From: Parahaliea maris
GTDB taxonomy: Bacteria; Pseudomonadota; Gammaproteobacteria; Pseudomonadales; Halieaceae
Length of the DNA stretch: 64,000 nucleotides
Assembly (NCBI RefSeq): GCF_008064665.1
Contig: NZ_VRZA01000001.1
Location: forward strand, 124,001-188,000
Reading direction: 5' to 3'
A program made the position numbers and the translations under genes. Under the pieces are notes generated by a model, which worked only from the letters and a program-made list of their open reading frames with translations, had not been told where the DNA came from and ran no database searches. Positions 810 to 14,562 of the stretch are shown here, one piece after another (the first letter of the stretch is position 1; each line of letters starts with the position of its first letter).

Positions 810-896
810 GCCGGAGTGGTGAAATTGGTAGACACAGGGGATTCAAAATCCCCCGCCCTTAAAAGCGTGCCGGTTCGAGTCCGGCCTCCGGTACCA
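810..896 (+). tRNA. tRNA-Leu (anticodon CAA)
   Basis: An 87 nt class II tRNA with the CCA end encoded. The anticodon stem-loop GGGGA-TTCAAAA-TCCCC gives anticodon CAA (reads UUG). A long variable arm precedes the T arm (GCCGG TTCGAGT CCGGC). The acceptor stem GCCGGAG/CTCCGGT contains one G-U pair. Its 3' 17-18 bases are duplicated at 14406 and 14475, so it is the attachment site of the downstream integrative element and is kept intact by the integration. Confidence 0.97.
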
Positions 897-897
897 C
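880..897 (+). repeat. attL core (tRNA-Leu 3' end)
   Basis: The 18 bp TCCGGCCTCCGGTACCAC covers the T-arm 3' strand, acceptor 3' strand, CCA and one further base. It recurs exactly at 14475-14492 and, less its first base, at 14406-14422. This is the usual crossover region for tyrosine recombinases that target tRNA 3' ends. Confidence 0.85.
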
Positions 898-1083
898 ATA
901 TCCGCTATACGGGCCTCCACAGGCCAACACGATTCCTCACAGAAACACACGTTTCGTGCTTGTATAGCAGCATATTTCTAATATCCGCCCTGCACAACGT
1001 CCCCGCACAGGCCACAGGTCTACACGGGGTTCTACGTCATTTCGCGAAGCATTTCGCGCAGCAAAATGCAGGAGAACCGGATA

Positions 1084-2205
1084 ATGGATATCCACATTGC
1101 CAAAGTAAGAGACACCCTACCCCAGCGTTCCGCTCCCTACTGGCGGGTCATCAAGAAGGGCTGTGCGGTGGGCCTCCGCCGCAACCGCACCGGGGAGGAT
1201 ACGTGGGTGGGTCGCTACCGCCTGGACGGGGTAAAGCAGTTCGCTAAGTTCGGGCGGGTATCCGTCACCACATGGGAGCAGGCACTCAAGCAAGCCCAGA
1301 AGTGGTTCGCTGAGTGCGAGGCTGGCCAAAAAACATCCTACGTGACCGTGACCGAGGCTTGCCGCCTGTACGTCGAGAACCGACGTGTAGAGAAAGGCGA
1401 CAGTACCGCCGATGATGCCGAACGGCGGTTCAAGGCCCAAGTGTATGACCACCCCATCGGCAAGAAGCAATTACGCAAGCTCAGCACCACGGACGTCGAG
1501 AAGTGGCGCAATGGTATGGCGACCAAGTCCACGAAGTGTGCCGCCAACCGCAACCTACGCTCCTTCAAAGCAGCCATGAACTACGCCCGCCGACAGGGGC
1601 TGGCATCCACCGATGATGCGTGGGGACTGGTGGGCATGTTCCCCGGTGCAGACGGCAGGCGGGAGCTGTACCTGTCCCCCGCTGAGCGCCGGGAACTGAT
1701 CGACGGAGCCTACTCGTGGCTCGCGGCGTTCCTGACTGGCCTCGCCCACACTGGCGCACGACCTGGGGAACTGAGACAGGCCACAGTTGGCGACCTTGAC
1801 CTGAAAGCCCGCACCCTGAAGCTGTCCACCAGAAAAGGCAACGGCGGAACTCTGCGGGTGCGCCACTTCCCATTATCTAACCCCCAAGCCTACGCCTTCT
1901 TCAAACAGCAGGCCTCCGGGAAGCTACCTAGCGCTCCGTTGTTCCCCACGGCAGCAGGAGGCTTCATAGCGGAGGCAGTGCTAAGTAGCTCTATCCGAAA
2001 GGTACGCAGGAAGTTAGCACTACCGAAGGGCGTCGTGGCCTACTGCTTCCGCCATGCAGCGATTAGTGACTGGGTCACGGCAGGCATTCCGGTGGCAGCG
2101 GTGGCCAGAATGTGCGGCACGTCCATTGAGCGCATCAACCAAAATTATTTCCATCTAATTGAGGGAAGCGTAGATGACAAGCTAGCAGAGGTGGCGTTGC
2201 TATGA
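1084..2205 (+). CDS. int: Tyrosine recombinase / phage integrase
   Basis: A 373-residue site-specific recombinase that would integrate and excise the element at tRNA-Leu. The N-terminal part (to about 80) resembles the arm-binding domain of P4/lambda-type integrases; the catalytic domain shows R226 (HTGARPGEL), K251, R323 (AYCFRHAAIS, with Tyr in place of the first catalytic His, a known variant) and the nucleophile Y355 (NQNYFH). The start at 1084 is preferred over an in-frame ATG at 1066 because AGGAG lies at 1069-1073. The gene begins 187 bp from the tRNA, points away from it, and its last codons overlap the next gene (ATGA). Confidence 0.93.
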   Translation: MDIHIAKVRDTLPQRSAPYWRVIKKGCAVGLRRNRTGEDTWVGRYRLDGVKQFAKFGRVSVTTWEQALKQAQKWFAECEAGQKTSYVTVTEACRLYVENRRVEKGDSTADDAERRFKAQVYDHPIGKKQLRKLSTTDVEKWRNGMATKSTKCAANRNLRSFKAAMNYARRQGLASTDDAWGLVGMFPGADGRRELYLSPAERRELIDGAYSWLAAFLTGLAHTGARPGELRQATVGDLDLKARTLKLSTRKGNGGTLRVRHFPLSNPQAYAFFKQQASGKLPSAPLFPTAAGGFIAEAVLSSSIRKVRRKLALPKGVVAYCFRHAAISDWVTAGIPVAAVARMCGTSIERINQNYFHLIEGSVDDKLAEVALL

Positions 2206-2459
2206 GTGCTAGCAAGGAAGAACCTTACGAGTACACAGAATGCCGGGGCTACCGTGTCGGTATGTCATTGCACGAGGCAGTGCAACGCTATCTTCAAACC
2301 CGTGGCAAGGATGCGCCTAAGAACAGGGCGCACGTTATGCGTCATCTTGAAAGAGGAAGCTGGTGGGTGGGTGATTATTCCCTGTCGCTATACTTTGAAG
2401 AAGGAGAACTTGTGGCGCTCCGTTCACACAGGGATATTACAAAGCCAAAGTACGTTTGA
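2202..2459 (+). CDS. Hypothetical protein (85 aa), co-translated with integrase
   Basis: Starts inside the integrase stop (ATGA overlap), which points to translational coupling. The product (MSASKEEPYEYTECRGY...) is a small soluble protein with no signal peptide or membrane segment and no motif I recognise. It ends 18 bp before a hairpin. Being coupled to int, it may assist recombination or be a small regulator, but the sequence does not say which. Confidence 0.6.
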   Translation: MSASKEEPYEYTECRGYRVGMSLHEAVQRYLQTRGKDAPKNRAHVMRHLERGSWWVGDYSLSLYFEEGELVALRSHRDITKPKYV

Positions 2460-2476
2460 CCCTATAAAACACAGCG

Positions 2477-2500
2477 CGGGGGCTTACTCATTGGCCCCCG
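2477..2500 (+). terminator. Hairpin after the integrase operon
   Basis: A 7 bp perfect stem (CGGGGGC, 2477-2483; GCCCCCG, 2494-2500) with a 10 nt loop follows the 85-aa gene. There is no T-run, so it may be a weak or Rho-assisted terminator, or it may stabilise the mRNA end. The AT-rich stretch after it (about 2529-2540, CATAATAATAC) is a possible -10 for the next operon. Confidence 0.45.
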
Positions 2501-2637
2501 GCTTGCTACACTGGCACATAGGCCACACCATAATAATACAGAGCCCGAGGCGCAGGATTCAGTACCTGCGTACGCCTTCCAAGTAGATCAAAAAACTGTC
2601 ACCAAATTTCTCACCGATTAACTTTGGAGACAGCACC

Positions 2638-2865
2638 ATGTCCAACCCAAACTTCAAAGGCGGCGACATTTTTCCGAAGCACTACAGCTTCGCTGAAGCT
2701 GAGGAAGTGTCCGGCCTATCCCAGTCCTACCTTCGCAAGAAGAAAGACCTAGGGCAGCTCCCCGTTTACCAGTTCGGCGGTTCTGGCCAGATGGTCATCC
2801 TACACACCGACCTTGTCGGCCTCCTAAAGCTGGTGGAGATCCCCGGCGCAAAGAAGGCGGGGTGA
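2638..2865 (+). CDS. AlpA-like helix-turn-helix protein (excisionase/activator)
   Basis: A 75-residue protein with a MerR/AlpA-like winged HTH pattern: HYSFAEAEEVSGLSQSYLR (recognition helix region), then a basic stretch KKKDLGQLPVYQFGG and a final wing-like strand (MVILHTDLVGLL). Such proteins in P4-like satellites and other integrative elements activate int/excision or act as directionality factors. A GGAG ribosome site precedes the ATG. It is the first gene of the replication operon and the only clear DNA-binding regulator in the element, so it is the best candidate for the switch between integration and excision. Confidence 0.7.
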   Translation: MSNPNFKGGDIFPKHYSFAEAEEVSGLSQSYLRKKKDLGQLPVYQFGGSGQMVILHTDLVGLLKLVEIPGAKKAG

Positions 2866-2868
2866 CGT

Positions 2869-3378
2869 ATGAAAATAGAGCGAGAAGCGTACGTCCGCGT
2901 TGATGCCAGCGTGGACTACGCCCGTACAGATAGAGGCTACCCCACACACACCCCGACATTCGAAGAAGTGGGCATCATTTCACGGACGCCCCTCCTTCCT
3001 GTTGAAAACTACAAGGAGCGCTACCAGTTTCACCCACGGGTAGAAGATAACGACAACCCCACACCGATTGTACAAGGCCGATGTATAGCCGCCCCTCACA
3101 GCACCCTGCACTACGACGAGCTTAACGACAGGTATGACGCCACGTTCCACGTGCTGGCAAACAGACAGGGACTTGTAGGCGTGGAGTTCTACGCTGCGTT
3201 TCCCAGTGCTTCATGGTGGTGGGATAGAACGCCCATACGCGGAACCATGCAGCGAATGTCGGACAGTGAAGTTTTGAGGTCTGTTGTTCCGATGTGCATG
3301 TACGTCATGGGTGAGCTAATTCGCCGGCACCGTGATCGCATTGGCTTTGCCCCAAAATCTAAAGGAGACGCAGCGTGA
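2869..3378 (+). CDS. Hypothetical protein (169 aa)
   Basis: Begins 3 bp after the AlpA-like gene and ends overlapping the next (GTGA), so it belongs to the same operon. The product is soluble, with an N-terminal YVRVDASVDYARTDRGYPT segment and an aromatic-rich C-terminal half (EFYAAFPSASWWWDRTP). No signal peptide, membrane helix or recognised motif. Its position before the primase suggests an early replication or takeover role, which is inference only. Confidence 0.6.
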   Translation: MKIEREAYVRVDASVDYARTDRGYPTHTPTFEEVGIISRTPLLPVENYKERYQFHPRVEDNDNPTPIVQGRCIAAPHSTLHYDELNDRYDATFHVLANRQGLVGVEFYAAFPSASWWWDRTPIRGTMQRMSDSEVLRSVVPMCMYVMGELIRRHRDRIGFAPKSKGDAA

Positions 3379-3587
3379 CAAATCCAGACGTTAAGTACAT
3401 CGAAGAACAGGCGGCTGAGGAAGTCTACTGCTACCACTGCGGGGTCACTGGCCCTTCAACTGTGAAGCTAAAGCACTGTAAGAACGGAGTCACACACGTC
3501 GGACTTTACTGCGCCTCGTGCGACGCGTACCGACGCTGGGCCAAGCAAGAACGCCCTGTTGGGAACGCCTTTATCCCGAACCCGTAA
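3375..3587 (+). CDS. Small zinc-ribbon protein (70 aa)
   Basis: GTG start overlapping the previous stop. The product has two Cys pairs, CYHCG and CASC, separated by about 23 residues, the layout of a zinc ribbon; it is otherwise basic and hydrophilic. Zinc-ribbon peptides of this size in phages often bind nucleic acids or host transcription/replication proteins. A hairpin directly follows its stop codon. Specific function unknown. Confidence 0.6.
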   Translation: MTNPDVKYIEEQAAEEVYCYHCGVTGPSTVKLKHCKNGVTHVGLYCASCDAYRRWAKQERPVGNAFIPNP

Positions 3588-3642: not shown

Positions 3643-4608
3643 ATGAGCAACTATAGCACTGCGCCAGCGCAGACGATAGAGCTTTTAACCCTCTTGGAAC
3701 CCCAAAACGCTATAGATACAGTGTTTTCGTGGCGTGTCATAGAGCCGCCCTGTAACAAGGGCTTCATCCCAACCCCTGCTCGGCCCCGGAATGTTCGGGG
3801 CACGTTCGGTCAGGTAAACGCACAACTCAGCGCTGCCAATGTCACCCACCGCGCCGCTGTCTACCTAATGATACAGGCCAACGATAGCAAGGGCTTCGGC
3901 AAGGCGAACGTTGAGCGCATCCGCGCGTTGTTTGTCGATCTGGACGAGGACGGGCCTGCCAAGTTGGAGGCTGTCATGCAGGGTGTCCACGCCCCGCATC
4001 TGGTTGTCGAATCCAGCCCCGGCAAGTATCACTGCTACTGGCAGGCGTCGTTACCGGTCGAGCACTACGAAGGCCGGAGCAAGCAGCTTATTGATAAGTA
4101 CGGCGGCGACCCTAGCTGCTTCGACCTGGCTCGTATACTGCGCGTCCCCGGGTTCTACCACCACAAAGCAGAGCCGTTCCTGTCTAGTGTTATCCACCGG
4201 GCAGCCGAGCCGGTCCCGCTTACGCAGGACAACCTCACCGCGTGGTTAGGTAGCGCTCCGCCCCCGGTGCCCATCTGTAAGCCCTCTGGCCCGCCGGAAA
4301 AGCGCCATCCCAACAATCTGGTGCCGTGGTTTCAGGTGGCCGGGATGTATCTAGGTGAGGTGTCTACTGGACGGCACAACGTCATATGTCCGTGGGTCCA
4401 CCGCCACACGGACGGTGACCAGTCAGGTACAGTGTACTTCGAGCCTACCGAAGCCAACTGGTTTAGCGGCGGGTTCAAATGCCAGCACGCTCACTGCCAA
4501 GACAAGCGCATCAAAAATGCCAGATCTGCTGTCCACAGGCTGGCAGCGTGGAAGTCGGGCATTCGCTTTGAGGTCTTGTATGACCGTTTCGAGCGGGGGC
4601 TGTTATGA
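3643..4608 (+). CDS. RepB-type DNA primase
   Basis: A 321-residue protein. Residues about 95-165 carry an archaeo-eukaryotic/RepB-type primase core: FVDLDEDGP (97-105, metal-binding acidic motif), ESSPGKYHCYW (123-133) and ARILRVPGFYHHK. The C-terminal part has a His/Cys-rich segment (CPWVHRHTDGD and CQHAHCQ), compatible with a small zinc-binding or helicase-docking domain. It would synthesise RNA primers at the element's own origin. The ATG at 3643 follows AAGGAG; an open frame reaches back to 3559 but would overlap the previous gene and the hairpin. It overlaps the helicase gene by 4 bp, so the two are probably co-translated. Confidence 0.75.
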   Translation: MSNYSTAPAQTIELLTLLEPQNAIDTVFSWRVIEPPCNKGFIPTPARPRNVRGTFGQVNAQLSAANVTHRAAVYLMIQANDSKGFGKANVERIRALFVDLDEDGPAKLEAVMQGVHAPHLVVESSPGKYHCYWQASLPVEHYEGRSKQLIDKYGGDPSCFDLARILRVPGFYHHKAEPFLSSVIHRAAEPVPLTQDNLTAWLGSAPPPVPICKPSGPPEKRHPNNLVPWFQVAGMYLGEVSTGRHNVICPWVHRHTDGDQSGTVYFEPTEANWFSGGFKCQHAHCQDKRIKNARSAVHRLAAWKSGIRFEVLYDRFERGLL

Positions 4609-6311
4609 CTGACGAAATTGAGCAAGCTGAGCAAGACATACTTGAAATGGCAGCCGCTGGATTACCGATGCGTCTGCAAGACAGCCCACAAGTTATCGCC
4701 GCCGCACGCCACGCCATCATACGCCCACTGAACGTGGGCGTTATGTTCTCAGGGCGCTGTGTTTTCAAGCACCTCGCGGATATGGGCGGAGTTTACAGGC
4801 GCTGGAACAGCGTGGTGACTGTTGATGAAAAGAACTTGAGGTTCTCTGCTATCAGCAAGCACCGCTTCTGCTCCGTGGTTGAGAAGCCGGGGCTACCTGT
4901 CCACGCGGTGACGCTTCGTACTGGTAGAAATGGAAGAGAGGAGCTCAGGTTTAAGGAAAGTCACCTGCTGGTGTCCGAAGCGGAGCTGCTACTTGCCAAT
5001 GACGAAGGCATAGAGCAACTCAGTAACGTGGAGATCATAAGCCAGTTCCCGTTCTTACACCGACGCGGTACGGAGCTTGTAGAACTACAGCCGGGGTACA
5101 ACCCCGATGCTGAGGTGTTCGTGTGCTCCGACCAACCGTTAGCGGCAGTCCAGTGGGAACGGGCTGTCGCTGACCTTAAGAACTTGTACCGAGACTTCAA
5201 GTTTACGACACCCTCTGACTTTTCACGCGCTATCGCCATGCTCCTTACCCCGGCCCTCCGCCGGGGTAGGCTGCTCGACGGCCCGTTCCCTCTCGGCTGC
5301 GTCCTTGCTGACCAAAGTCAGGCAGGTAAGGGCGAACTGGTGAACGTGACTGTGTTGGTGTGGACTGGTAAACCTCCACCTAAGAGCACCAACAAGGACG
5401 ACGACAACGGTGTTGGAAGTTTCGAGGAACGCTTAGGTGACGCCATATTCCGCGCCGCCGAGTTCTACGTTATCGACAACGTGCGGGGTCACATTGCCAG
5501 CCAGTCCTTGGAATCGGCCATCACCGAGGGCGAGCTGCAAGTCCGCATGGCGTTCAAGCCACTCCGCACCGTTGACATCAGTATGTTGTCTGGCTTTATG
5601 ACAAGCAACGGCATGTCCGCTACTCCGGACCTTGTTAACCGGATGTGCATGTCTACGCTGGAAAAGCAGCCTTCTGACTACACGTTCCACGCATGGCCTG
5701 AGGGCAGTCTGCGTAACCACGTCACCCAAAACCAGCATCACTACCTGTCCTGTGTCTACAGCGTTATTAGAGAGTGGTGGGCGCGTGGCGCTCCACGCTT
5801 GCCAGTCAGCACCTATGACCATGACATGACGCGGTGGGGCGGTGCGATTGAGTACATGGTTCAAGAACTGTTTGGCCTGCACTCCGCGCTAAAGGGTCAT
5901 GGCAAAACCAAGGAGACAGTGCGGGATGCCAGTCAAAGCTGGCTGCGCCAAGTGTTCAACGCTCTTAAGCAGGAGGGCCAACTGTGCAGGGTCGTAAGGG
6001 CGTCTGAAATCCTGGAAGTGTGCGAGGCCTACTCGCTTGATGTAACAACCAAGCAGGACGCGGACGACGTGGCAAAAGTTCGAACCATCGGACGTAAGAT
6101 CGGACCAGCGTTTAAGAAGAACGACGTAACGCAGGTCCGCACATCTTCCCTTACCTGTGATGAGGTTAACGTGGAAAACTTCTGGGTGTACAGACACGCG
6201 GTTGGTGACACTAAGTTCTACGTGTTCAGCGCCGACCAGCTTGAACCGGGGATGATAGTGGCTTACTTCCATGAAGGTGGCGTGGTCACACCGATAGACA
6301 GGAAGTATTGA
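4605..6311 (+). CDS. Replicative helicase-like ATPase
   Basis: A 568-residue protein translationally coupled to the primase (ATGA). It has a Walker A-like loop ADQSQAGKGEL (235-245) and a Walker B-like strand EFYVIDNVRG (287-296), preceded by an N-terminal domain of about 220 residues and followed by a winged-helix-like C-terminus. This arrangement resembles the D5/virE/DUF927-type primase-helicases used by phages, plasmids and satellites. Together with the primase it would unwind the origin-like repeats that begin 2 bp after its stop. Family assignment is by layout; the fold was not verified. Confidence 0.65.
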   Translation: MTDEIEQAEQDILEMAAAGLPMRLQDSPQVIAAARHAIIRPLNVGVMFSGRCVFKHLADMGGVYRRWNSVVTVDEKNLRFSAISKHRFCSVVEKPGLPVHAVTLRTGRNGREELRFKESHLLVSEAELLLANDEGIEQLSNVEIISQFPFLHRRGTELVELQPGYNPDAEVFVCSDQPLAAVQWERAVADLKNLYRDFKFTTPSDFSRAIAMLLTPALRRGRLLDGPFPLGCVLADQSQAGKGELVNVTVLVWTGKPPPKSTNKDDDNGVGSFEERLGDAIFRAAEFYVIDNVRGHIASQSLESAITEGELQVRMAFKPLRTVDISMLSGFMTSNGMSATPDLVNRMCMSTLEKQPSDYTFHAWPEGSLRNHVTQNQHHYLSCVYSVIREWWARGAPRLPVSTYDHDMTRWGGAIEYMVQELFGLHSALKGHGKTKETVRDASQSWLRQVFNALKQEGQLCRVVRASEILEVCEAYSLDVTTKQDADDVAKVRTIGRKIGPAFKKNDVTQVRTSSLTCDEVNVENFWVYRHAVGDTKFYVFSADQLEPGMIVAYFHEGGVVTPIDRKY

Positions 6312-6589
6312 GGGCTATAACCGGGCTATAACGCTATAACCGCTATAGCCCCAATGGGCTACAAAACCTCCCGATAGACCATACACGTTATTTGCCATAG
6401 CGGTTATAGCGTTATAGCGGTTGGGGTGCGAATTGGTACTGAAAATATAGGGGCAAGAACTAAGGACTCCTTCTAAAACCACTATTTTTATAGTCTTTTT
6501 CCGGTCGAGTCATTTCATCTACAAAACCACTGTTGCAAAATACTGTAATAAACCGGACTCCGGAGCGCTAAGCGCAGGGTAAAACGAGT
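6312..6589. other. Putative replication origin of the element (iterons and AT-rich tract)
   Basis: No gene in this 278 bp. It contains four GCTATA-type units (starting 6314, 6325, 6333, 6342) and a 22 bp perfect inverted repeat, 6325-6346 and 6397-6418, built from GCTATAACG and CTATAACCG units, separated by 50 bp. An AT-rich tract follows (about 6440-6560) with a direct repeat AAAACCACT at 6475-6483 and 6533-6541. Iterons next to an AT-rich unwinding region directly downstream of primase-helicase genes are the usual structure of satellite and plasmid origins. The same repeats could also act as an operator for the terminase operon. Confidence 0.6.
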
Positions 6590-7057: not shown

Positions 7058-7425
7058 GGCACCTTCATCCTCATCGTCCTCGGTGCGTGGCACTGGGCAC
7101 GGAGGTCGGCGGGCTGGGAACTCCACGCCTTGCGCTCCGGACGTCAAACTCACCCCCGTGATCAATTTTAAACGACGAGGAGTTGCCCTTGCCCCGTCGC
7201 CACACAAATATCAGGTAAATCCGGAGTACGTAGAAGTGGCGCGTAGCACTCAATACATGCCAACCGGAATACTCAATAAAGTACAATCGGCATATAACCT
7301 GAACACCTGTAAGCCCTCAAATGGGTGTACCCCTACCCTAGCCCTACCCCGGCCACAAAAGCCCTCACACGTCCTCTGTAGGCCCCCACAGAGGACGCCC
7401 TGCGCCACGCCCCGGTGCCGCTGCC
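7058..7425. other. Gap between the terminase genes (368 bp)
   Basis: A 129-codon plus-strand open frame spans 7044-7433, overlapping both terminase genes slightly, but its Ser/Pro/Arg/Cys-rich composition looks like non-coding translation and it lacks a ribosome binding site. Minus-strand frames here are also unconvincing. The end of the gap is C-rich (CCCCTACCCTAGCCCTACCCC). Possible roles are a packaging (pac/cos) site or a degraded gene; nothing is certain. Confidence 0.4.
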
Positions 7426-8997
7426 GTGCCTAACCTCTCCCGCCAAGATAAGGCGCTACTGGAGGAGTTTACCTCCCGCCAGCGCGCCCTGAACGACATT
7501 GAAGGCTTCCGGCAATATCTCTCCCGTACGTATCACAGCGACTTCCAGCACCCTCCCGTCGCCCACCACCGACTGTTACAGCAGCACCTGATGGAGCTGT
7601 ACCACGGAGACTATGACGGGCTGATCGTTGAGATGCCCCCCGGTAGCGCCAAGAGCACCTACAGTTCTATTCACTTCGCGTGCTGGTATCTCGCCAAGCA
7701 TCCGGACAGGAAAATAGTCGCCATCTCGAATACCACGGCGCTGGCCGAAGACTTCTCAAGGCGGCGGAGGTCGGCGTGTCTAGAACAGGAATGGCAAAAT
7801 CTAGCTGACTGCTCCATACCTAAGGACCACCAATCACTCGCCAACTTCGGGACCAGTAAAGGTGGAAGTATGCTGGCCGTGGGTATGGGCTCGGCGGTCA
7901 GTGGTCGCCGAGCGGACCTGCTAATAATCGACGATCCCATTGCCAGTCTTGAGCAGGCAATGAGTCCGGGGCAGTTGGAAAAGCAGTGGGGGTCATACCT
8001 CTACGAGTACCGGAACAGGCTGCTCCCCCACGGCAAGCAAGTGATTATCAGCACCCGCTGGTCGCAGTGGGACTTGATAGGCAGGATTAAGGAGCAAATA
8101 GCTTCCGGAGAAGAAAAGCGGAAGTGGAAAATTTTAACCCTCCCAATGGAAGCCAAAGACGACGACCCGCTGGGCAGGGAACCTGGAGAGAGACTGTGGC
8201 CAGACTGGTTTAGCGCGACCCAAGTAGAGGAGAACAAGAAAGACCCGCTGCTGTGGTCCGCGCTGTATCAACAGGAGCCAGTGGACGCGTCAGGCACTTG
8301 GGTAGACGCGCAGTACATCCAGATTATCAAAACTACGGAACCGCCCCACCCGTTGAAGTACGTGGTGTCGGTTGATCTAGCGCTGAGCGACGGAGTCGGT
8401 GACTACACAGCGATCGTGGTGGCGGGGATAGGTCCCTCCCGCGAGTTGTACGTTGTGGACGTCCACTTAGACAAGGTGCCAGTGCATCAAACGATGGCCA
8501 AGCTCAATGCGGTCTGCGCCCAGTACTCCCCCTCTGTGGTTCTCATTGAAGACTCGCCGGCCGAAAAGGTGTTCCTTGAGGCGCTGCGGGAGCACAGCCG
8601 GACTCGCAGTGAGTTAATACCTTTGTATCCCATGCCCACCCGTGGCAGGGACAAGGAGACGCGTGGGGCGGCCATCCGTAGTTTATTCATGCAGAACAAG
8701 GTGTTCCTTGTTGAATCCGGGTGGAATCAGGAGGCTATCAAGCAAATCCTGAACTTCCCGCCCAAGACCAAGGCCATACATGACGACTTTGTAGACGCCC
8801 TTGCCCTCATCGGCCGCCACATCGGTAAGCAGTCCAACCCAAGCGCGGAGTCCGATGAAGTAGCCCAGCCCATTATCAGAAGCAGCATAGAACTAGACGC
8901 CTACGGCAACATGCAGACCACCGCCACGCTGGGGCAACTCTGGGACGATCATGATGAGCGTCTAAGTTTGTCCCGCAGATTTGCAGGGAGGATCTAA
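7426..8997 (+). CDS. terL: Phage terminase large subunit
   Basis: A 523-residue DNA-packaging motor. The ATPase domain has Walker A PPGSAKST (71-78), Walker B LLIIDD (165-170) and the coupling-type motif STRW (209-212). The RNase H-like nuclease domain has VVSVDLAL (313-320, D317), IEDSPAEK (374-381) and IHDDFVDALAL (451-461). All catalytic positions look intact at full family length. The start is a GTG at 7426 with no clear Shine-Dalgarno. TerL cuts concatemeric DNA and pumps it through a portal into a procapsid; neither portal nor capsid gene follows, so it would have to engage a helper phage portal. Confidence 0.92.
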   Translation: MPNLSRQDKALLEEFTSRQRALNDIEGFRQYLSRTYHSDFQHPPVAHHRLLQQHLMELYHGDYDGLIVEMPPGSAKSTYSSIHFACWYLAKHPDRKIVAISNTTALAEDFSRRRRSACLEQEWQNLADCSIPKDHQSLANFGTSKGGSMLAVGMGSAVSGRRADLLIIDDPIASLEQAMSPGQLEKQWGSYLYEYRNRLLPHGKQVIISTRWSQWDLIGRIKEQIASGEEKRKWKILTLPMEAKDDDPLGREPGERLWPDWFSATQVEENKKDPLLWSALYQQEPVDASGTWVDAQYIQIIKTTEPPHPLKYVVSVDLALSDGVGDYTAIVVAGIGPSRELYVVDVHLDKVPVHQTMAKLNAVCAQYSPSVVLIEDSPAEKVFLEALREHSRTRSELIPLYPMPTRGRDKETRGAAIRSLFMQNKVFLVESGWNQEAIKQILNFPPKTKAIHDDFVDALALIGRHIGKQSNPSAESDEVAQPIIRSSIELDAYGNMQTTATLGQLWDDHDERLSLSRRFAGRI

Positions 8998-8999: not shown

Positions 9000-9413
9000 A
9001 TGACAAACCAAGAAATTGAGCAGCTCATTGAGTACGCCGCAACGATGCACCCCGGCAGGGGATGGGAACAGCTCTCCGAGGAGGAGAAGCGAGCGGTATT
9101 TAAGAACTGGGAAGCCCAGCGTGACCTAGGCACCGAGATGACCCTCGCCCCCGGTCCGCAGGGCAAGCGCGTAGGTCCTAGCGGTCTGTACGTCGCCCCG
9201 AACGCTTGGGAGATTGCTGCCGATGCTCTGCAGAAGGGCGTGGGGGGCTACTTGGTCGGGCGAGCTAACCGCGGAGAACGACAAGGCCGTGAGGCTGCGG
9301 CTGACCTGCTCACGCGGAGGGACGCCATCGACGCAGAGGTGGCGGCGACACGCGCCGCCAAAGAGGAAGAAGAACGTAAAGCCCTTAGAGCACGCCTGTT
9401 TGGAGGCCCCTAA
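9000..9413 (+). CDS. Hypothetical phage-type protein (137 aa)
   Basis: Starts 2 bp after terL with a GGGAGG site. The N-terminus (MTNQEIEQLIEYAATMHPGRGWEQLSEEEKRAVFKNW) is helical and acidic; the middle has a glycine-rich stretch (ALQKGVGGYLVGRANRGERQG) and the end is an Ala/Glu/Arg coiled-coil helix. It is too small for a portal. The position right before longer helical proteins suggests a small internal virion or head-completion protein, without a specific family match. Confidence 0.5.
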   Translation: MTNQEIEQLIEYAATMHPGRGWEQLSEEEKRAVFKNWEAQRDLGTEMTLAPGPQGKRVGPSGLYVAPNAWEIAADALQKGVGGYLVGRANRGERQGREAAADLLTRRDAIDAEVAATRAAKEEEERKALRARLFGGP

Positions 9414-9415: not shown

Positions 9416-10288
9416 ATGAATATGACTCAAGTTGTACAAGAATACGCTTACCTTCAAGCAGGTATTGACCACTGCCGCGCGAGGGGTAAGCCCGTTCCCT
9501 CCCACGTCACAGACCGGGCCAATTTCCTGTACAACAAGGCCGCCTCAGTCCTGACCCCACAGGAGGCGTCAATGGCTTTGAGGGCCGTGGACGCTTTGAA
9601 GGCCCAATACACTCAACATGCCGTGGCACGGGACGCCCAGCGCGAGGCCGCAGCAAATCATTACTACCGAGATGACCTTGCCAAGTCTATGACGGGGCTA
9701 ACAGCGGACCAAGTTGTCGCCGCTAAGGACGGCCAGAAGTACGCCGTGAAAGGCAGTAGATTCCAGCCGGAACAAGCGAGAGTACGGGTGGAATCTATAC
9801 TGAAAAAGGCTGGCCACAAGCTCAACTACGATCAGTTCCTGGCCCACGTGGACGCGGTGGACGACGCCAAGCGCCACGGACGTGACCCTGCCAAATATCT
9901 CACCGAGAAATTCGGGAAAAAGGCGTCCCAAATGGGCGACCTTATTGAAGGCTTCAACAACTCCGGTATTTCGGAGGTCATGGCGCTGACAAAGGGGCGG
10001 ACAACCCCCGATCACATGACTGCCCCCACAAAATCGGAGGTGTTGCGCTCACAACTGGCCGACGCTTGGGTGAATGACGCGGTTAAGTCCCCCAACTCCC
10101 GTGAAAAGTTGGTTGAGCGATACCACCCCTCCTACCTCGAAGACACAGGCCGCTCCGGGGACATAGCTCGCGCCATGCTCCAGCATGAGCAGGCTATGGA
10201 AGCAGACGTATCCAACTACGAAGGGCCTACTTACGACATCGACCCGGAATACAAAGACGAGTTCACCGCCGCCCAGGAGGGCACGTGA
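9416..10288 (+). CDS. Hypothetical helical phage protein, possible internal virion protein (290 aa)
   Basis: Starts 2 bp after the previous gene. Almost entirely charged, Ala-rich and helical (VVQEYAYLQAGIDHCRARG; YTQHAVARDAQREAAANHYY), with no signal peptide or membrane helix. It resembles podovirus scaffold or ejection-module proteins in composition and position, but I recognise no diagnostic motif. The ATG overlaps AATT-ATG-AAT-ATG, so either of two adjacent ATGs could be used. Confidence 0.45.
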   Translation: MNMTQVVQEYAYLQAGIDHCRARGKPVPSHVTDRANFLYNKAASVLTPQEASMALRAVDALKAQYTQHAVARDAQREAAANHYYRDDLAKSMTGLTADQVVAAKDGQKYAVKGSRFQPEQARVRVESILKKAGHKLNYDQFLAHVDAVDDAKRHGRDPAKYLTEKFGKKASQMGDLIEGFNNSGISEVMALTKGRTTPDHMTAPTKSEVLRSQLADAWVNDAVKSPNSREKLVERYHPSYLEDTGRSGDIARAMLQHEQAMEADVSNYEGPTYDIDPEYKDEFTAAQEGT

Positions 10289-10289: not shown

Positions 10290-11171
10290 ATGGACACACT
10301 AGCTGAACGCGAGAAGCACATACTGGCTCAGGCCGACGCGCTGAACGCCATCCTATCGCAAACCAACATCCCACAGGCCGCTCAGGCTGCTGAGATGCGC
10401 AGCCGTGAACAGGCGGCGTCCCGGCTGGCCAGACAACGTGCCGGTCAGTCCCGGGATGACCTGCTACTGGCCGAAGCCCTCCGCCGTTCCCGCGACAAGG
10501 GCGCTGGCCCCTTCAAGGGCACCGGGATGGAGGCCCAAATGCTCAACGAGGCGTACCGGCAGTCAGTCGGCGGTGGCCAGATGAGCCATGACGACTTCAT
10601 GCGGGACGTGGCCTCCCAGCGCCTCGGCCGCCAGACCACCGTCGCCACCCCGGAGGGCACCTACATCACCCCCGGCTACGACACCAGCTTCATGGGCGGC
10701 AGGCGTGGTACTCCGGACTTTGTACCGAAGCCTCCAACCGAGGGCGAGAAGCGGGGCCAGTACACCACCTCCAATCTGCGACAACTGAACAACGCAGCCA
10801 GCGAGATGGTCCCAAGTATCACGGACGCTGCTGCCGAGCAGTACGCGCCCGAGTTTCTGAAGGGCTACTTCACCTCCGACGAGTACAAGGCCATGAACAA
10901 CCGCGCCCGCGAGTGGGCCGCAACGCTGGTGTTCATGCGCTCCGGAGCCACCGCCCGCAAGGACGAGGTGGACGCGGCCATGCAAAACTTCTGGCCTCAA
11001 CCTGGCGATGGTCCCCAAGACGTCCAGCGCAAGGCCCAGATGCGAGAGGAGGCAATGGCCACCGCCGAGGCGGCATACGCGCAGCGTCAGGGAGGCACCC
11101 CGCCCGGAACGGGTCAGCCCCCTCCTGCCAAGCGTGTTATCAAGTTCGGGGACTTGCCCCCGGGGAGCTAG
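10290..11171 (+). CDS. Hypothetical helical phage protein, possible ejection protein (293 aa)
   Basis: ATG at 10290 follows AGGAGG; an open frame upstream (from 10185) overlaps the previous gene and is rejected. The protein starts MDTLAEREKHILAQADALNAIL and is rich in Ala, Gln and Arg, with a glycine/proline-rich C-terminal third. No enzymatic motif seen. By size, composition and its place before the 513-aa protein it fits an internal virion (ejection) protein. Confidence 0.45.
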   Translation: MDTLAEREKHILAQADALNAILSQTNIPQAAQAAEMRSREQAASRLARQRAGQSRDDLLLAEALRRSRDKGAGPFKGTGMEAQMLNEAYRQSVGGGQMSHDDFMRDVASQRLGRQTTVATPEGTYITPGYDTSFMGGRRGTPDFVPKPPTEGEKRGQYTTSNLRQLNNAASEMVPSITDAAAEQYAPEFLKGYFTSDEYKAMNNRAREWAATLVFMRSGATARKDEVDAAMQNFWPQPGDGPQDVQRKAQMREEAMATAEAAYAQRQGGTPPGTGQPPPAKRVIKFGDLPPGS

Positions 11172-11174: not shown

Positions 11175-12716
11175 ATGCCCTATGACGTTGAAATGCCGGA
11201 CGGCACGATCATCGAGGACGTACCGGACCACATCACGCAGGCCGAGCTACTGAAGCGGCTAAACGGGGCGGGTACACCTCCGCCCACCGTGAAGACGCAG
11301 GCACAGCTTGACCAAGAGGCGTACAACGCGGCCTCGCCGTGGGAGAAGCTACAGCTTGGAGTGAACCAGTCGCTGCGGGAGCTTGGCCACGGGCTGCAAG
11401 AGCTTATCCCCGGCCTGCCCGATCTCACCCCGCAGGAACGGCAGGAACTGGCCCGCCAGCAGGCCGTAGAGGGTGGCTGGAAGACCACAGGCCAGATAGC
11501 CGGTGATGCAGCAATGGCGACTGCCCCCGTGGTCGGTTTCTCCGGGAAGCTGTCAAACCTTGCGCGTGGTCAACGCGTGGCGGCGACGCTGGGCCTAGAG
11601 GGGCTGGGGTCAGGCATTGTGGAGGGCTTACAGGCACCCACAGACAGGCTAACCACGGGGGCCGGGGCAGCAGCCACCACGATGGCTCTAGGGGCCGTGT
11701 TCCCCTTCCTGTTTGCGGGCCGTGTGACCCCGGACGCCGCTTACCTGCTCGATCAGGGCGTCAAGCTCACCCCCGGACAAGCCTACACGGGCGGTCTGCT
11801 ACAGGGCATTGAGGAACTGGCTTCCTACATTCCCGGCCTCGCTGGTGGCGTCCGCAAGGGCAAAGACGAGGCGCTACAGTCGTGGAACACCATGCTTCGC
11901 AACGGCGAGCGCCCCCCGCAGGAGGCCATGAAGAAGATCAAGGAGGGCCTCGGCAAGGAGTACGACAGGATATTCGCCGGTAACTGGACCATCGACACCA
12001 ACGAGCTTGGCCGGAAGTGGATGGGCATACAAATCCCGCTCAGGCGAGAACTGCCGGACGAAGAAGCCAACCGAGTATTCAAGACCCTCGGCAGCTACTT
12101 TGACATGATAAACCGCCCCGACGTCAGCGGGCGGGCTATACAGGTCGTGGACAGGAACATTGGCAAGCTGGCGAACCAAGCGTACAAGCGCGGTGATGGC
12201 GTCACCGGCGAAGCCTACGACGCTGCTCAACGACTGCTACGCCAGCAACTTCCAGGTGAGGCAGGCAAGCAGATCGTGAAGCACAACCGCGATTACGCCG
12301 CGTTCAAAGTGCTGCAGGACGCCACCGCCAAAGTCGCCCCCCTCAAGCGAGTGCCCCCCGGCACCATCACGCCCTCTGAACTACTGGCGAGTAGCGCCAA
12401 GTCCAACCGGCCCGCAGCGGCTCAGGGCGAAGCCTTGATGCAGCAGGAGGCTCAACGCGGCCTCAACGTGCTGGGCGACCCAGCGTCTAACAGGCTACAG
12501 GAGTTCTCGACCAAGTTCAGTCCTGTGCTGTATCCAGCCGCCATGCCGGTCCGCGCGGTGGCCTCCCCGATGGCGAACATGCTGCGTAGTCATGGGGCGG
12601 AGGGCTTATCAGCGCCCCTCGCCGCTGCCGCCGCCTCGGGACTACCCGCTGCGACTGGCTCAACCTACCAGCGGGAACTTGAAGAATTGCTACAAAGCAT
12701 GGGAATCCTACGATGA
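11175..12716 (+). CDS. Putative podovirus internal virion / DNA-ejection protein (513 aa)
   Basis: The N-terminus MPYDVEMPDGTIIEDVPDHI followed by TQAELLKRL is a recurrent domain at the start of podovirus internal proteins and virion hydrolases. The middle has hydrophobic, glycine/alanine-rich segments (about 115-190, GDAAMATAPVVGFSG, TTMALGAVFPFLFAG) able to insert in membranes, typical of ejected pore-forming proteins. The C-terminal half is helical. In a satellite, carrying its own ejection protein would let transducing particles be modified for delivery. It overlaps the next gene by 4 bp. Function is inferred from the N-terminal motif and context. Confidence 0.6.
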   Translation: MPYDVEMPDGTIIEDVPDHITQAELLKRLNGAGTPPPTVKTQAQLDQEAYNAASPWEKLQLGVNQSLRELGHGLQELIPGLPDLTPQERQELARQQAVEGGWKTTGQIAGDAAMATAPVVGFSGKLSNLARGQRVAATLGLEGLGSGIVEGLQAPTDRLTTGAGAAATTMALGAVFPFLFAGRVTPDAAYLLDQGVKLTPGQAYTGGLLQGIEELASYIPGLAGGVRKGKDEALQSWNTMLRNGERPPQEAMKKIKEGLGKEYDRIFAGNWTIDTNELGRKWMGIQIPLRRELPDEEANRVFKTLGSYFDMINRPDVSGRAIQVVDRNIGKLANQAYKRGDGVTGEAYDAAQRLLRQQLPGEAGKQIVKHNRDYAAFKVLQDATAKVAPLKRVPPGTITPSELLASSAKSNRPAAAQGEALMQQEAQRGLNVLGDPASNRLQEFSTKFSPVLYPAAMPVRAVASPMANMLRSHGAEGLSAPLAAAAASGLPAATGSTYQRELEELLQSMGILR

Positions 12717-13024
12717 ACCCCCACACGCTCCCCCACCGCGACATGGTGCGTATCGTGAAACTGCTACAGCAGGAGTTGCAGAAGCAGCTATCAGCCTCCC
12801 CTCAGCACCACGACCTCGCTACTCAGGACCTGGCCTTTTCGGTGGGGCAGATGTTCGCCAACCTGATCGCCCTCCACACCGAGCACGCTGGCGAGGAGGT
12901 GCAGGCAGTCCGGGAGATGGTGAGTGGCTTCCTAAAGGGCGCGGACTCCGCTACCCGGTACGTGGAACTGGAACAGGGCGATACGGTTGCCGTGGAGTGG
13001 GAAGGTGCAGTCACTATCCATTAG
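12713..13024 (+). CDS. Hypothetical protein (103 aa)
   Basis: ATGA overlap with the preceding gene. The product is a small, mainly helical acidic protein (MVRIVKLLQQELQKQLSASP; LIALHTEHAGEEVQAVREM) with a final beta-rich tail (VELEQGDTVAVEWEG). No motif recognised. Coupling to the 513-aa protein suggests it works with it, perhaps as a chaperone. Confidence 0.5.
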   Translation: MNPHTLPHRDMVRIVKLLQQELQKQLSASPQHHDLATQDLAFSVGQMFANLIALHTEHAGEEVQAVREMVSGFLKGADSATRYVELEQGDTVAVEWEGAVTIH

Positions 13025-13073
13025 CGTAGACACTGCCCTACTGGCAGATCACGGCCCGGAGACCGGGGGCAAG

Positions 13074-13190
13074 ATGGTTGAAGACCAGATAGCTATAGCT
13101 CAACGCTGCCCCTGCTTCACCTGCCCCGACCGCTACCGATGTCGCCGGGAATGTGAAGGCTTCAGGGCTTACGTGAAACGGGGGAGGTAG
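13074..13190 (+). CDS. Small Cys-rich protein (38 aa)
   Basis: MVEDQIAIAQ then RCPCFTCPDRYRCRRECEGF: five Cys in about 16 residues, suggesting a zinc knuckle. The ATG at 13074 is preceded by a G-rich stretch (GGGGGC); a longer frame from 12987 overlaps the previous gene. Its stop codon touches the start of the next small gene, so the two are probably translated together. Unknown function. Confidence 0.5.
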   Translation: MVEDQIAIAQRCPCFTCPDRYRCRRECEGFRAYVKRGR

Positions 13191-13361
13191 ATGAGAACCC
13201 TAGACCAAGCCACAGCCAGATGGAGCCGGGCGCACCGCGCTCTACACAAGCTGCAAAAGTTCCCCCAGTCGGGGTCTTACCACGCGGCCAAGCTGAAATT
13301 GGCACAAGACGAGTTCGACAAGGCGTGTGCTGAGCGCGCGGCGCTTAGAGCGGGGCGGTGA
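13191..13361 (+). CDS. Small basic helical protein (56 aa)
   Basis: Begins at the base after the previous stop, with GGGGGAGG just upstream. The product MRTLDQATARWSRAHRALHK... is basic and helical throughout, ends ERAALRAGR, and has no membrane segment. It may bind DNA or be a small antagonist of a host or helper protein; nothing specific can be said. It is the last gene of the rightward late operon before the DnaA-box-like repeats. Confidence 0.5.
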   Translation: MRTLDQATARWSRAHRALHKLQKFPQSGSYHAAKLKLAQDEFDKACAERAALRAGR

Positions 13362-13372
13362 CATTTACCAAA

Positions 13373-13519
13373 TCAGGCAAAATGTCTTGTGGATGTGCTG
13401 TGGATATCGTGTGGATAAAATTTCGGCGTTTTTAAAAAGGCCTCGGCAAACGCAGCCAGAGCAGCAGTGATTGCTATCCCGTTTGCGGCTAGTGTCGTAA
13501 TGTCTATCGCCAAGTCCAT
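13373..13519 (-). CDS. Possible small membrane protein (48 aa)
   Basis: A minus-strand frame encoding MDLAIDITTL followed by a hydrophobic Ala-rich helix (about residues 8-29) and a polar tail. It would be the only minus-strand gene of the element. Against it: no ribosome binding site is visible and its C-terminal codons are made of the 11 bp-spaced DnaA-box-like repeats, so the frame may be fortuitous. Confidence 0.25.
   Translation of the reverse strand: MDLAIDITTLAANGIAITAALAAFAEAFLKTPKFYPHDIHSTSTRHFA
13388..13418 (+). promoter_or_regulatory. Three DnaA-box-like repeats at 11 bp intervals
   Basis: TGTGGATGT (13388-13396), TGTGGATAT (13399-13407) and TGTGGATAA (13410-13418) lie in the same orientation exactly 11 bp apart. 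The last is the perfect complement of the classic DnaA box TTATCCACA, and the others differ by one or two bases. An A/T-rich tract follows (13417-13437). This looks like a helically phased DnaA-binding array at the right end of the element. Confidence 0.65.
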
Positions 13520-13615
13520 GTAGCGAGTTTACTACGTTCAGAACTCACAGACTAATGCTTTGGTACCGAACCAATAAACAGCTTGCTCTGAGTTTTAACC
13601 CTGTTACGCTAAAAC

Positions 13616-14218
13616 ATGCCAGCTTTTATGGCGGCATGTTTTGACGTAACAAGAGTGCTGAACTTGGCTGAGTGCGATTTGTGTATCAATAAGACTGACG
13701 CAGTTTGGGTCCGACGTATGTCCGCGTCTGAGATCTTTGAATGGCGGAACGGCATCATGCTCGCCGCCCTGGAGCGCAACGACGTTGAAACCGCGAAAGC
13801 CATCGGGCGACGCAACGATGCTGACAAGCGAAGGGCGAACCGCAAGCGTCGTGTGACCTTGTGCGGACGTTGTGCAATGGCGACCAATCCAGAAGAAAAC
13901 GGTGACCAACTAATTGTGGAGGGGGTACACAGTGATCGAGAGTTTCAGCACGTTCGCAAAGAGTGCTGCGTTTGCGGCATACCCGTCACCTACCTGTACT
14001 GGAGCGAGGGGCTGCGTAAGGGTGACGTAACCTGTAGTCATAATTGTCGTAAAACAACGGAGCGGAGGGGGCGTCAGCTTACGCTGCCCTCAATCAAACA
14101 GTGCGCCCACTGCGGGGAGGACTTCTACCCCAAGCGGAGTACCGGCAGATACTGCGGGGCCAAGTGCCGGGTATACGCCAGCCGCAAGCGTAAGGGCAAC
14201 GCGCAACCCCCCTCGTAG
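13616..14218 (+). CDS. Multi-zinc-finger hypothetical protein (200 aa)
   Basis: The product carries Cys pairs CDLC, CGRC, CCVCG and CSHNC, and a C-terminal finger CAHCGEDFYPKRSTGRYCG-AKC followed by a basic tail ASRKRKGN. The last finger resembles HNH-associated or FLZ/zinc-ribbon fingers seen in phage DNA-binding proteins, but no HNH catalytic residues are visible. It is separated from the late operon by 254 bp, so it likely has its own promoter, and it is the last gene before attR, a place where satellites and prophages often keep accessory or defence genes. Confidence 0.6.
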   Translation: MPAFMAACFDVTRVLNLAECDLCINKTDAVWVRRMSASEIFEWRNGIMLAALERNDVETAKAIGRRNDADKRRANRKRRVTLCGRCAMATNPEENGDQLIVEGVHSDREFQHVRKECCVCGIPVTYLYWSEGLRKGDVTCSHNCRKTTERRGRQLTLPSIKQCAHCGEDFYPKRSTGRYCGAKCRVYASRKRKGNAQPPS

Positions 14219-14405
14219 CGCCCCACAGAGCCCCCTACGGCCACGCCAGCCCCCCGGCAACACCCTAGCCTACCCCGCGCCAGCAGGCCGCCACAGCGGC
14301 CAACAGAGCTACACACCTCCTCACGAAGCAAAGCCCGAAACGCGCCCCCCTCTACAGACCTCTAACCTCTTGTTTTATAATGTCTTTGCAGGGCGGGTCT
14401 TCTGG
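14219..14405. other. Right end of the element, no gene seen
   Basis: C-rich, gene-free DNA after the zinc-finger gene. It includes a TATAAT hexamer (14376-14381) just before the attachment repeats, without a convincing -35 at the right distance. Recombinase and host-factor arm sites would be expected here but none can be named. Confidence 0.4.
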
Positions 14406-14562
14406 CCGGCCTCCGGTACCACCTGATATGCGCGGCACGCTTGCGCGCGCCGGCCGACGTGTCGGACCATCGACTCCGGCCTCCGGTACCACCTGATATG
14501 CGCGGCACGCTTGCGCGCGCCGGCCGGGATGCCGGACCATCGATTCCGGCCTGCGGCACCAC
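14406..14562 (+). repeat. attR with 70 bp tandem repeat of the tRNA-Leu 3' end
   Basis: The tRNA 3' core occurs at 14406-14422, exactly again at 14475-14492, and degenerately at about 14545-14562 (GCGGC in place of CCGGT). Successive copies are 70 bp apart, and the spacer (CTGATATGCGCGGCACGCTTG and GGACCATCGA parts) is nearly identical between the first two. This looks like two successive attR/attB scars, or duplication of the native tRNA 3' flank. Either of the first two copies could be the functional attR. Confidence 0.75.

Follow-up and report, generated by a model that had tools for sequence, protein, structure and literature searches.

A ~13.5 kb element inserted at a tRNA-Leu gene of Parahaliea maris carries its own terminase together with podophage ejection genes. 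We read it as an integrative element of the phage-satellite type, exploiting a podovirus helper of the P22 type, and put the probability of this reading at roughly 60%. Since it has no recognisable shell or portal genes, this packaging and ejection element most likely travels in the particles of another virus. Positions below refer to the window, the whole 64-kb stretch of DNA that was analysed, and the features are:

810..896, + strand: tRNA-Leu (CAA), the integration site (ARAGORN)
881-897: attL core, 17 bp, at the tRNA-Leu end (exact 17-mer repeat)
1066..2205, + strand: tyrosine integrase, 379 aa (PF00589 8.2e-10, phrog_1 1.6e-42)
2202..2459, + strand: 85-aa gene with a 4-nt overlap (ATGA, 2202-2205) with the integrase stop; no homologue in Pfam/PHROG
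2638..2865, + strand: 75-aa protein, earlier called AlpA-like; no family match
2869..3378, + strand: 169-aa protein; no Pfam match, best phrog E 0.34
3375..3587, + strand: 70-aa Cys-rich protein; no Pfam match, best phrog E 0.27
3643..4608, + strand: RepB-type primase, ~321 aa (PF16793 4.9e-17, phrog_10514 DNA primase 8.6e-12)
4605..6311, + strand: 568-aa protein, replicative helicase candidate (PHROG matches, see below)
6314..6418: candidate origin of replication, with the iteron GCTATAAC five times inside a 25-nt inverted repeat (repeat search)
6590..7057, + strand: TerS, 155 aa (phmmer to the solved small terminase PDB 6w7t, 1.6e-4)
7058..7425: TerS-TerL gap, 368 nt (ORF spacing)
7426..8997, + strand: TerL, 523 aa, of a podophage TerL clade (phrog_38 1.3e-91; trees)
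9000..9413, + strand: 137-aa gene in the portal gene's place (ORF; GGGAGG within the last TerL codons)
9416..10288, + strand: 290-aa late protein at the position of the ejection module (ORF, position)
10290..11171, + strand: 293-aa ejection protein, gp20 position, injection-protein family (profile, blastp, SW)
11175..12716, + strand: 513-aa ejection protein, gp16 position (match to the C72C1 'DNA ejection protein')
12713..13024, + strand: 103-aa late protein; no Pfam/PHROG match
13074..13190, + strand: small Cys-rich ORF; no Pfam/PHROG match
13191..13361, + strand: 56-aa ORF; best phrog E 0.055
13616..14218, + strand: 200-aa HNH-like/zinc-finger protein (phrog_1271 HNH endonuclease 1.6e-8)
14406..14492: attR, with the 17-bp core present twice in exact form, at 14406-14422 and 14476-14492 (repeat search)

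The earlier note had placed the element at the tRNA-Leu between direct repeats, and the repeat search agrees: in the 64-kb window the 17-mer CCGGCCTCCGGTACCAC occurs at positions 881, 14406 and 14476 only, and its 18-mer form at 880 and 14475 only. The note had chosen the second right-hand copy. Because the core sits in a 70-bp tandem repeat (14406-14475 and 14476-14545, 93% alike, with a degenerate third copy near 14546), the right end is ambiguous by one repeat unit. The 17 ORFs, all on the + strand, span ~91% of 1066-14218. With att repeats, an integrase, replication genes and an incomplete virion gene set, the element has the structure expected of a phage satellite in the general sense.

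The family matches listed above bear out the integrase, primase and TerL of the earlier note, and its origin-like repeats are present as well, with five copies of the iteron in the block and one more elsewhere in the 64 kb, and inverted repeat arms (6325-6349 and 6394-6418) that are 96% complementary. Its AlpA-like regulator could not be confirmed: the 75-aa protein matches no Pfam, PHROG or NCBIfam family, is not among the host genome's 26 HTH_17 matches (E up to 10), and gave a low-confidence model for which Foldseek returned no significant fold match. The helicase candidate, which presumably has a P-loop motif, matches phrog_29234 (3.3e-10) and phrog_10537 (7.2e-10), neither with an assigned function, and phrog_19930, polymerase/primase, at E 0.0064.

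The TerS candidate is supported by its likeness to a solved small terminase, and it shares 37-40% identity over 104-116 aa with ORFs at most ~760 nt upstream of TerL at loci L229-L233 (best 5.9e-21). The gap that separates it from TerL is a possible cos/pac region. TerL falls in a podophage clade of seven rows (96/97), in a tree where long branches meet (the window, L228 and the L099 phage) and which gives no firm order inside the clade. A portal follows at -4 to +307 nt behind TerL in the six other rows.

Here, the genes behind TerL follow at spacings of 2, 2, 1, 3 and -4 nt, and GGGAGG, GGAGG, AGGAGG and GGGGAG precede the 137-, 290-, 293- and 513-aa genes, respectively; with such tight spacing and motifs, the module behind TerL is therefore joined at gene borders. 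The four late genes of the earlier note are confirmed, and become five when the 137- and 103-aa genes are counted. Compared with 117 proteins and ORFs from eight reference phages or contigs, two of them match ejection proteins. A profile from eight podophage proteins ranked the 293-aa protein first of 329 window ORFs (3.6e-6), and the protein at the same position in a P22-like prophage of genome G134 matches it as well (blastp 2e-6, SW z 10.2). The 513-aa protein also ranked first of the 329 ORFs against the 'DNA ejection protein' of phage C72C1 (phmmer 6.2e-8), with an SW score of 146 that 0 of 300 shuffles reached (48.7, sd 7.6). The matches behind this assignment are those to C72C1 and to the L099 phage, plus a weaker one to CBW1004C gp53 (88 against a shuffle maximum of 62). 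A five-row profile including C72C1, L099 and CBW again put the protein first of 329 (E 0.0084); a profile built from seven podophage proteins of the gp16 position missed it (-3.8 bits), and no similarity was seen to the 674-aa protein at the same position in G134. Judged by sequence, the 293- and 513-aa genes thus code for ejection proteins of podophage type. For the 137-, 290- and 103-aa genes no relatives appeared in Pfam, PHROG or the eight reference phages and contigs, and a search of phages gave none for the 290- and 137-aa proteins. In this comparison z values of 6-7 are by themselves no proof, because such scores also arise in other pairs: the 56-aa ORF scored z 7.3 against phiAO1 gene 140, and the 137-aa protein z 6.0 against an ORF of 45 aa on the L099 contig.

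The portal, capsid, tail, lysis and repressor genes that the earlier note had not seen were not detected in the element by us either, with portal, coat, tail, lysis and repressor genes sought among its ORFs by Pfam/PHROG, a portal profile and comparison with the reference phages. P22-type podophages and prophages (the G134 prophage, C72C1, P26218, DSL-LC05 and the L099 phage) have homologues of its TerL or ejection block in the same late order, but there a portal and coat, known from annotation or from profile and position, precede the ejection block, and none is detectable in the element. Of a P22-like temperate podophage it has TerS-TerL and ejection proteins, with no portal, coat, tail or lysis genes detected. 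P4-like satellites are marked by the P4 alpha primase and Psu/Delta/Sid genes, and no such family was among the Pfam/PHROG matches of 18 element ORFs. PICIs are marked by an AlpA or Stl regulator, and the 75-aa protein that might fill this role has no family match.

The nearest precedent among the systems compared is EcCIMP1, an E. coli PICI mobilised by the P22-like phage Kapi1 (PMC11773190). In the available part of its description it is likewise an integrated island with integrase and primase and a P22 relative as helper, and genes behind its primase resemble DNA transfer (ejection) proteins to some degree; no terminase or capsid gene is identifiable there (PMC11773190), whereas the element has TerS, TerL and, on profile evidence, ejection genes at the gp20 and gp16 positions. 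The capsid-forming PICIs (cf-PICIs) and Mulch/Flayer satellites code TerS and TerL as the element does, and cf-PICIs also an HNH endonuclease comparable to its HNH-like gene, but both groups, in the sections of the source covering them, code a portal and major capsid protein (PMC10690885), which the element lacks while adding ejection genes. Gene order is shared with the PICMIs, which in the excerpts at hand run int, ATGA-overlapping gene, small gene, unassigned genes and primase with no capsid genes, and show an overlap of a few nt between int and a further gene in 21 of 35 subfamilies (PMC10803314), which is also present in the element. The prototype is described in these excerpts as 6.1 kb long with a fis site, AlpA and a DUF3987/DUF5906 primase (PMC10803314); in contrast, the element has tRNA-Leu in place of fis, a RepB-type primase matching PF16793 only instead of DUF3987 and DUF5906, no confirmed AlpA (PF05930/PF12728; no HTH_17 match) and an extra packaging-ejection half. 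The AH14b satellite of Pseudomonas is also small and integrated, with int, primase and helicase; it has an AlpA-like regulator, uses a helper capsid and, in the portion of its description seen, has neither the terminase nor the ejection genes found here (PMC4936722). As far as these sources go, satellites either rely on the helper for shell, tail or terminase, or code terminase together with portal and shell.

The rival that survives best, unlikely as we consider it, is a defective P22-like prophage at tRNA-Leu, with portal, scaffold, coat, tail, fibre and lysis genes deleted and the packaging and ejection genes functionless. One old deletion would produce most of the observed picture, only a single copy was found, no helper, excision product or virion read was seen, and TerLs of this clade, like both families of ejection protein, are those of normal, portal-bearing podophages. 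The earlier note had named as a refutation that every homologue belongs to a full-length prophage from which this copy has merely lost genes, and the closest TerLs bear this out in part. The portal profile matched at 72 and failed at 130 of 202 TerL loci in a first set, and among the 80 closest loci 65 had a match (60 within 1.2 kb) and 15 had none. A same-strand ORF of at least 400 aa lies within 3 kb at 220 of 270 TerL loci; the others comprise 38 with less than 4.2 kb of contig remaining and 12 with more. By this measure 69 of the closest 80 have such an ORF and 11 do not, all of the latter with less than 2.8 kb of contig remaining. Wherever enough sequence is available, the nearest relatives of TerL show a portal or portal-sized ORF behind it. 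Pam1 (L017), one of the 12, had seemed portal-less through a cut-off artefact, since the portal annotated there overlaps the TerL ORF.

Among more distant TerLs the picture differs. Five of the 12 loci without a large ORF behind TerL despite the longer contig are one family (L103, L104, L106, L107 and L123, the Roseomonas group) with recombinase, replication gene, methylase, TerS candidate and TerL, and no portal match. L105, L113 and L127 also gave no portal match at the locus; inspection covered all of the 12 but L013, L040 and L098, and did not extend to the further TerL matches L287-L291. The Roseomonas-group elements resemble ours in this layout, with TerL at 34% identity to the window TerL, but differ in their serine recombinase (Pfam in L106 and L107), ParB-methylase and swapped replication genes, and ejection profiles found no ejection genes at their loci. 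Their TerLs are 82-86% identical to each other with dN/dS of 0.10-0.16 in 10 of 10 pairs (Nei-Gojobori with Jukes-Cantor, dS 0.75-1.05), and the methylase gave 0.19-0.23 in six pairs, L123 pairs excluded. Shell-less terminase elements appear, from these ratios, to be maintained, and because five loci have TerS and TerL with no portal, portal loss need not equal decay.

The existence of portal-less TerS-TerL elements under purifying selection strengthens the satellite reading and weakens that of a deleted prophage. The element itself also fits poorly with decay: no gene looks truncated among its densely coding open frames and tightly spaced late genes. TerL keeps C-terminal residues common to its sister phages and is followed after 2 nt by the next gene, so both ends of a loss would coincide with gene borders. 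Also missing are fibre, lysis and repressor genes; since the reference phages have these outside the stretch from TerL to the ejection genes, several losses would be required. The satellite-type reading of the earlier note therefore stands on the lack of portal and coat by sequence and on the portal-less terminase loci, and is held back by close TerL relatives in phages with a portal.

Very improbable, in our view, is an autonomous mini-phage with a portal and coat too diverged for recognition, for example in the 290- or 137-aa protein. The 290-, 137- and 103-aa proteins have neither relatives nor structure, and there are weak scores to head proteins: 48 for the 137-aa protein against a piece of the C72C1 'major head protein' (shuffle maximum 43) and 62 for the 290-aa protein against a scaffold-like protein of L099 (shuffle maximum 64). 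However, portals of the TerL clade measure 666-734 aa, for which 137 and 103 aa are too short, and a profile of 113 portal proteins gave no window ORF more than 1.7 bits. No tail, fibre or lysis candidate was seen, and a hydropathy of 1.6 is reached in just two cases, the 513-aa protein and an ORF of 48 aa on the minus strand. The earlier note had named a capsid or portal in the genes at 9000-13024 as what would speak against it; none appeared by sequence, and at the level of folds there was no usable model (mean pLDDT 39.7 for the 513-aa protein, AlphaFold without alignment). Slimmer still are the chances of a host-domesticated island with packaging and ejection genes repurposed for interference with incoming phage or in a gene-transfer-agent-like role, which the complete genes with no particle of their own and the reported contribution of EcCIMP1 to immunity against its helper, as given in the part of the source seen (PMC11773190), would suit, but ten element proteins had no PADLOC match and the integrase, replication genes and att repeats indicate mobility.

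As a satellite, the element would be excised from tRNA-Leu by its integrase and a small regulator, and replicated from the iteron block by its primase and helicase. Its TerS and TerL would single out element DNA and drive it past the portal into a helper procapsid, which would also be loaded with the element's gp20- and gp16-like proteins, and the particle would inject the element DNA through the element's own conduit. Because terminase acts at the portal from outside and ejection proteins from inside, the element would carry a 'portal-contact kit', with shell, portal, tail and lysis supplied by the helper. We propose more tentatively, at somewhat less than even odds, that this is a new satellite strategy, pairing its own packaging motor and injection conduit with a borrowed podophage shell, and that together with the Roseomonas-group elements it represents a wider class of shell-less satellites that carry a terminase, some with ejection genes and some lacking them. 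If true, ejection proteins can come from a parasite, and the element would be a natural system for asking what P22-type ejection proteins must match: portal, DNA or host envelope. Taken with EcCIMP1, it would suggest that podophage satellites tend to bring their own ejection genes.

The host's own genome has no match to the P22-type portal profile, so a helper would be external; the profile matched in 3 of 97 genomes searched. The 2-kb right flank matched 0 of 2 same-genus genomes, and hence gave no empty site. A second copy of the layout with ejection genes was not found by pattern scans or by TerL searches of 369, 398 and 390 sampled genomes, in which not every match was opened. The integrase was found in its own genome only among 78 relatives, as was the 513-aa protein among 195, with nothing for the latter in genome contigs or four records. 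As single sequences, TerL, the 513-aa protein and the helicase had no match in pattern scans of viral contigs, nor had the helicase a relative in plasmids; these scans use exact short peptide patterns and recover mainly close relatives. Relatives of the helicase candidate do occur in 6 other genomes among 369 of the class, and their genomic contexts are mixed.

The element lies next to a tRNA-Leu gene, and its genes are on the + strand with approximately 91% of 1066-14218 coding. Features of the region that are referred to below are as follows.

tRNA-Leu(CAA) gene, end at 896
Between the 75-aa gene and the primase gene: a 169-aa and a 70-aa unknown protein
7058-7425: 368-nt gap between the TerS and TerL genes, C-rich toward its end
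13373-13519, minus strand: 48-aa ORF with a hydrophobic stretch (hydropathy 1.7), the sole small membrane-like ORF among those tested
14406-14562: att-like array, the sequence containing the tRNA-Leu 3′ end in three tandem copies at 70-bp spacing

A 17-bp core, the last bases of the tRNA-Leu, has just two further copies in the 64 kb, at 14406 and 14476, which places the element at ~898-14405 (or to 14475), a span of 13.5 kb. Both right-side copies sit within the 70-bp tandem repeat, and this array is perhaps a remnant of earlier integrations. In the left half, the integrase matches PF00589 and phrog_1, and the start of an 85-aa gene overlaps its stop by four bases, ATGA. The 75-aa gene had been called AlpA-like in the earlier note, a name left unconfirmed by the lack of a Pfam, PHROGs or NCBIfam match, by its absence from the HTH_17 hits in its genome, 26 at E up to 10, and by a model (mean pLDDT 60) with no significant fold match. 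The primase is of the RepB type (PF16793, 5e-17). A 568-aa protein is a candidate helicase; its PHROG matches are phage proteins of unknown function and weakly also of polymerase/primase type, and relatives at 24-27% identity occur in six genomes as well as its own among 369 genomes of the class. Behind its gene are an inverted repeat and GCTATAAC, which occurs five times within 105 bp but once elsewhere in the 64 kb, and this block is a candidate replication origin. A 530-aa relative of the helicase follows a 404-aa integrase-like ORF on another compared contig (L299:7516-10629), another small integrated element.

The 155-aa protein at 6590 is a small terminase (TerS): it matches PDB 6w7t over residues 9-119 (phmmer E 1.6e-4), an entry that appears in a paper on the small terminase of phage PaP3, and shares 37-40% identity over 104-116 aa with ORFs at most ~760 nt upstream of TerL on five viral contigs (best 5.9e-21). 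TerL matches phrog_38 at 1e-91, and the gap between the two genes is a possible packaging site. In a tree of 41 TerLs, the element belongs to a clade of seven rows (bootstrap 96, SH-aLRT 97) nested in a 17-row clade (100/100); long branches meet in the tree, so that the order inside the smaller clade is tentative. Each of the smaller clade's six other rows (the L099 phage, L180, L226, L227, L240 and L228) has a 666-734-aa portal-profile match, beginning -4 to +307 nt from the TerL end. A portal match was found at 38 of the 40 closest TerL loci, 8.9 kb distant in L020, and the contigs of the remaining two loci stop 583 and 1,708 bp past TerL. Among the compared loci, L203:1878-4121 has a 747-aa TerL frame, ~250 aa above most relatives and possibly holding an intein or insert, and the 646-aa frame at L016:1-1940 (minus strand) has its query match interrupted by ~150 residues, a possible insert. 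The portal region of L230 (near 11500-13627) consists of ORFs of 305 and 426 aa versus a single one of ~730 aa in relatives, a frameshift or sequencing error.

Five genes (137, 290, 293, 513 and 103 aa) follow TerL at spacings of 2, 2, 1, 3 and -4 nt, and GGGAGG, GGAGG, AGGAGG and GGGGAG lie before the first four, respectively. In the L099 phage, a TerL sister with 31 kb of readable sequence, the order is TerL, portal, a 112-aa gene, scaffold-like, coat-like and tail-like genes, followed by 440-265-306-577 aa and a fibre-like gene (names except TerL and portal were assigned by size, position and appearance). The late block measures ~230-330, 420-510 and 610-650 aa in Rhodoferax phage P26218, DSL-LC05, Rhizobium phage RHph_Y1_10 and three Manatee Spring phages, and we take its genes to be at the gp7, gp20 and gp16 positions of P22. 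According to excerpts of PMC8402733, P22 injects what its genes 7, 16 and 20 encode. By sequence the 293-aa protein is an ejection protein: searched with a profile of eight proteins from the gp20 position, the 329 window ORFs have it at the top (E 3.6e-6; 21 bits against a maximum of 3.8 bits in 100 shuffles), and profile alignment gave a probability of 65.6 and E 5.8e-5. With the protein at this position in a P22-like prophage of genome G134 it shares 29.6% identity over 152 aa (E 2e-6 within the prophage region and 2.8e-4 in a larger set; Smith-Waterman score 123 against a maximum of 71 in 100 shuffles), and matches the RHph_Y1_10 'putative injection protein' at E 0.2 in one search and 8.5e-6 in another. 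The 513-aa protein, too, is an ejection protein by sequence. It is closest to the 520-aa 'DNA ejection protein' that comes last in the late block of podophage C72C1 (phmmer 6.2e-8, top rank among 329 window ORFs; Smith-Waterman score 146, with shuffles at 48.7, sd 7.6, and 0/300 as high), and the L099 577-aa protein scores 122 (shuffles 46.0, sd 6.9; 0/300). These two and, more weakly, CBW1004C gp53 are its top three among 117 proteins and ORFs, mostly late, from eight reference phages or contigs, and all three occupy the gp16 (last ejection) position. A profile of seven gp16-position proteins misses the 513-aa protein, which has no similarity to the G134 protein of that position; proteins of this type diverge fast according to excerpts of PMC8954989.

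None of the late genes matched a family of portal, coat, scaffold, tail or fibre proteins, every window ORF scored at most 1.7 bits against a portal profile of 113 proteins, and weak late-gene scores to head proteins in the 117-protein comparison did not stand out. The earlier description of an element with replication and packaging genes and without portal or capsid is confirmed and sharpened. There is no evident holin, since hydropathy 1.6 was attained among the element ORFs tested only by the 513-aa protein and the 48-aa minus-strand ORF. A six-row portal profile had no match in the element's own genome (4.85 Mb in 23 contigs), while 3 of the 97 genomes searched gave matches. The G134 prophage (L224/L225, G134:C7:40000-75000), from the host's order and with a late block of 193-355-674 aa, might by analogy model a helper's appearance.

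The best reading is a new variant of a phage-satellite-kind element, with a probability of about 0.6. The satellite-type interpretation made earlier stands in part; a prophage reduced by deletion, a less likely reading, is the main rival. The junctions bear on the choice between satellite and wreck: TerL retains the shared C-terminal residues, and an intact gene with a ribosome-site-like run begins 2 nt later. Chance deletion would need breakpoints at gene borders at both ends. Fibre, lysis and repressor genes outside the TerL-ejection interval are also gone, but the layout has been seen as one copy, which favours deletion.

When all 270 TerL loci were rechecked by ORF size, 12 had more than 4.2 kb left, yet no ORF of at least 400 aa within 3 kb behind TerL. 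Five of these are loci from the Roseomonas group (L103, L104, L106, L107 and L123), which have in common a recombinase region where contigs reach (Resolvase/Recombinase by Pfam in L106 and L107), a ParB-DNA methylase (74-88% identity), a TerS candidate (69-80%) and TerL (82-86%), with no portal match and no conserved gene behind TerL on its strand. The intervening replication genes vary, being VapE type in L107, AAA_25 in L106 and relatives of the window helicase in L103, L104 and L123. Their TerL is under purifying selection, with a dN/dS of 0.10-0.16 in 10/10 pairs. At 33-34% identity to the window TerL they are a separate, parallel case, and they raise the likelihood that an element lacking a portal retains terminase for use. 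The Roseomonas-group element extends over about 1.5-14.8 kb in L107, and a further one may be L113, which shares its contig with L106.

Searches on the window's element in open-licence PMC papers, the VEIME primary paper apart, gave no description of TerS, TerL and ejection genes without a portal. In excerpts of PMC10690885, cf-PICIs and Mulch/Flayer code a terminase along with portal and capsid, neither of which was found in the element. PICMIs have a front gene order like the element's, and 21 of their 35 subfamilies have a gene that overlaps int (PMC10803314, in part), whereas other defining PICMI features are absent from the element. AH14b, in excerpts of PMC4936722, uses a helper capsid and has no terminase of its own, a gene that the element does have. 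The nearest precedent is EcCIMP1, which, in the available portion of PMC11773190, is mobilised by the P22 relative Kapi1 and has no identifiable terminase, where the element has TerS and TerL; its genes behind the primase resemble DNA transfer proteins, and the element likewise has ejection genes.
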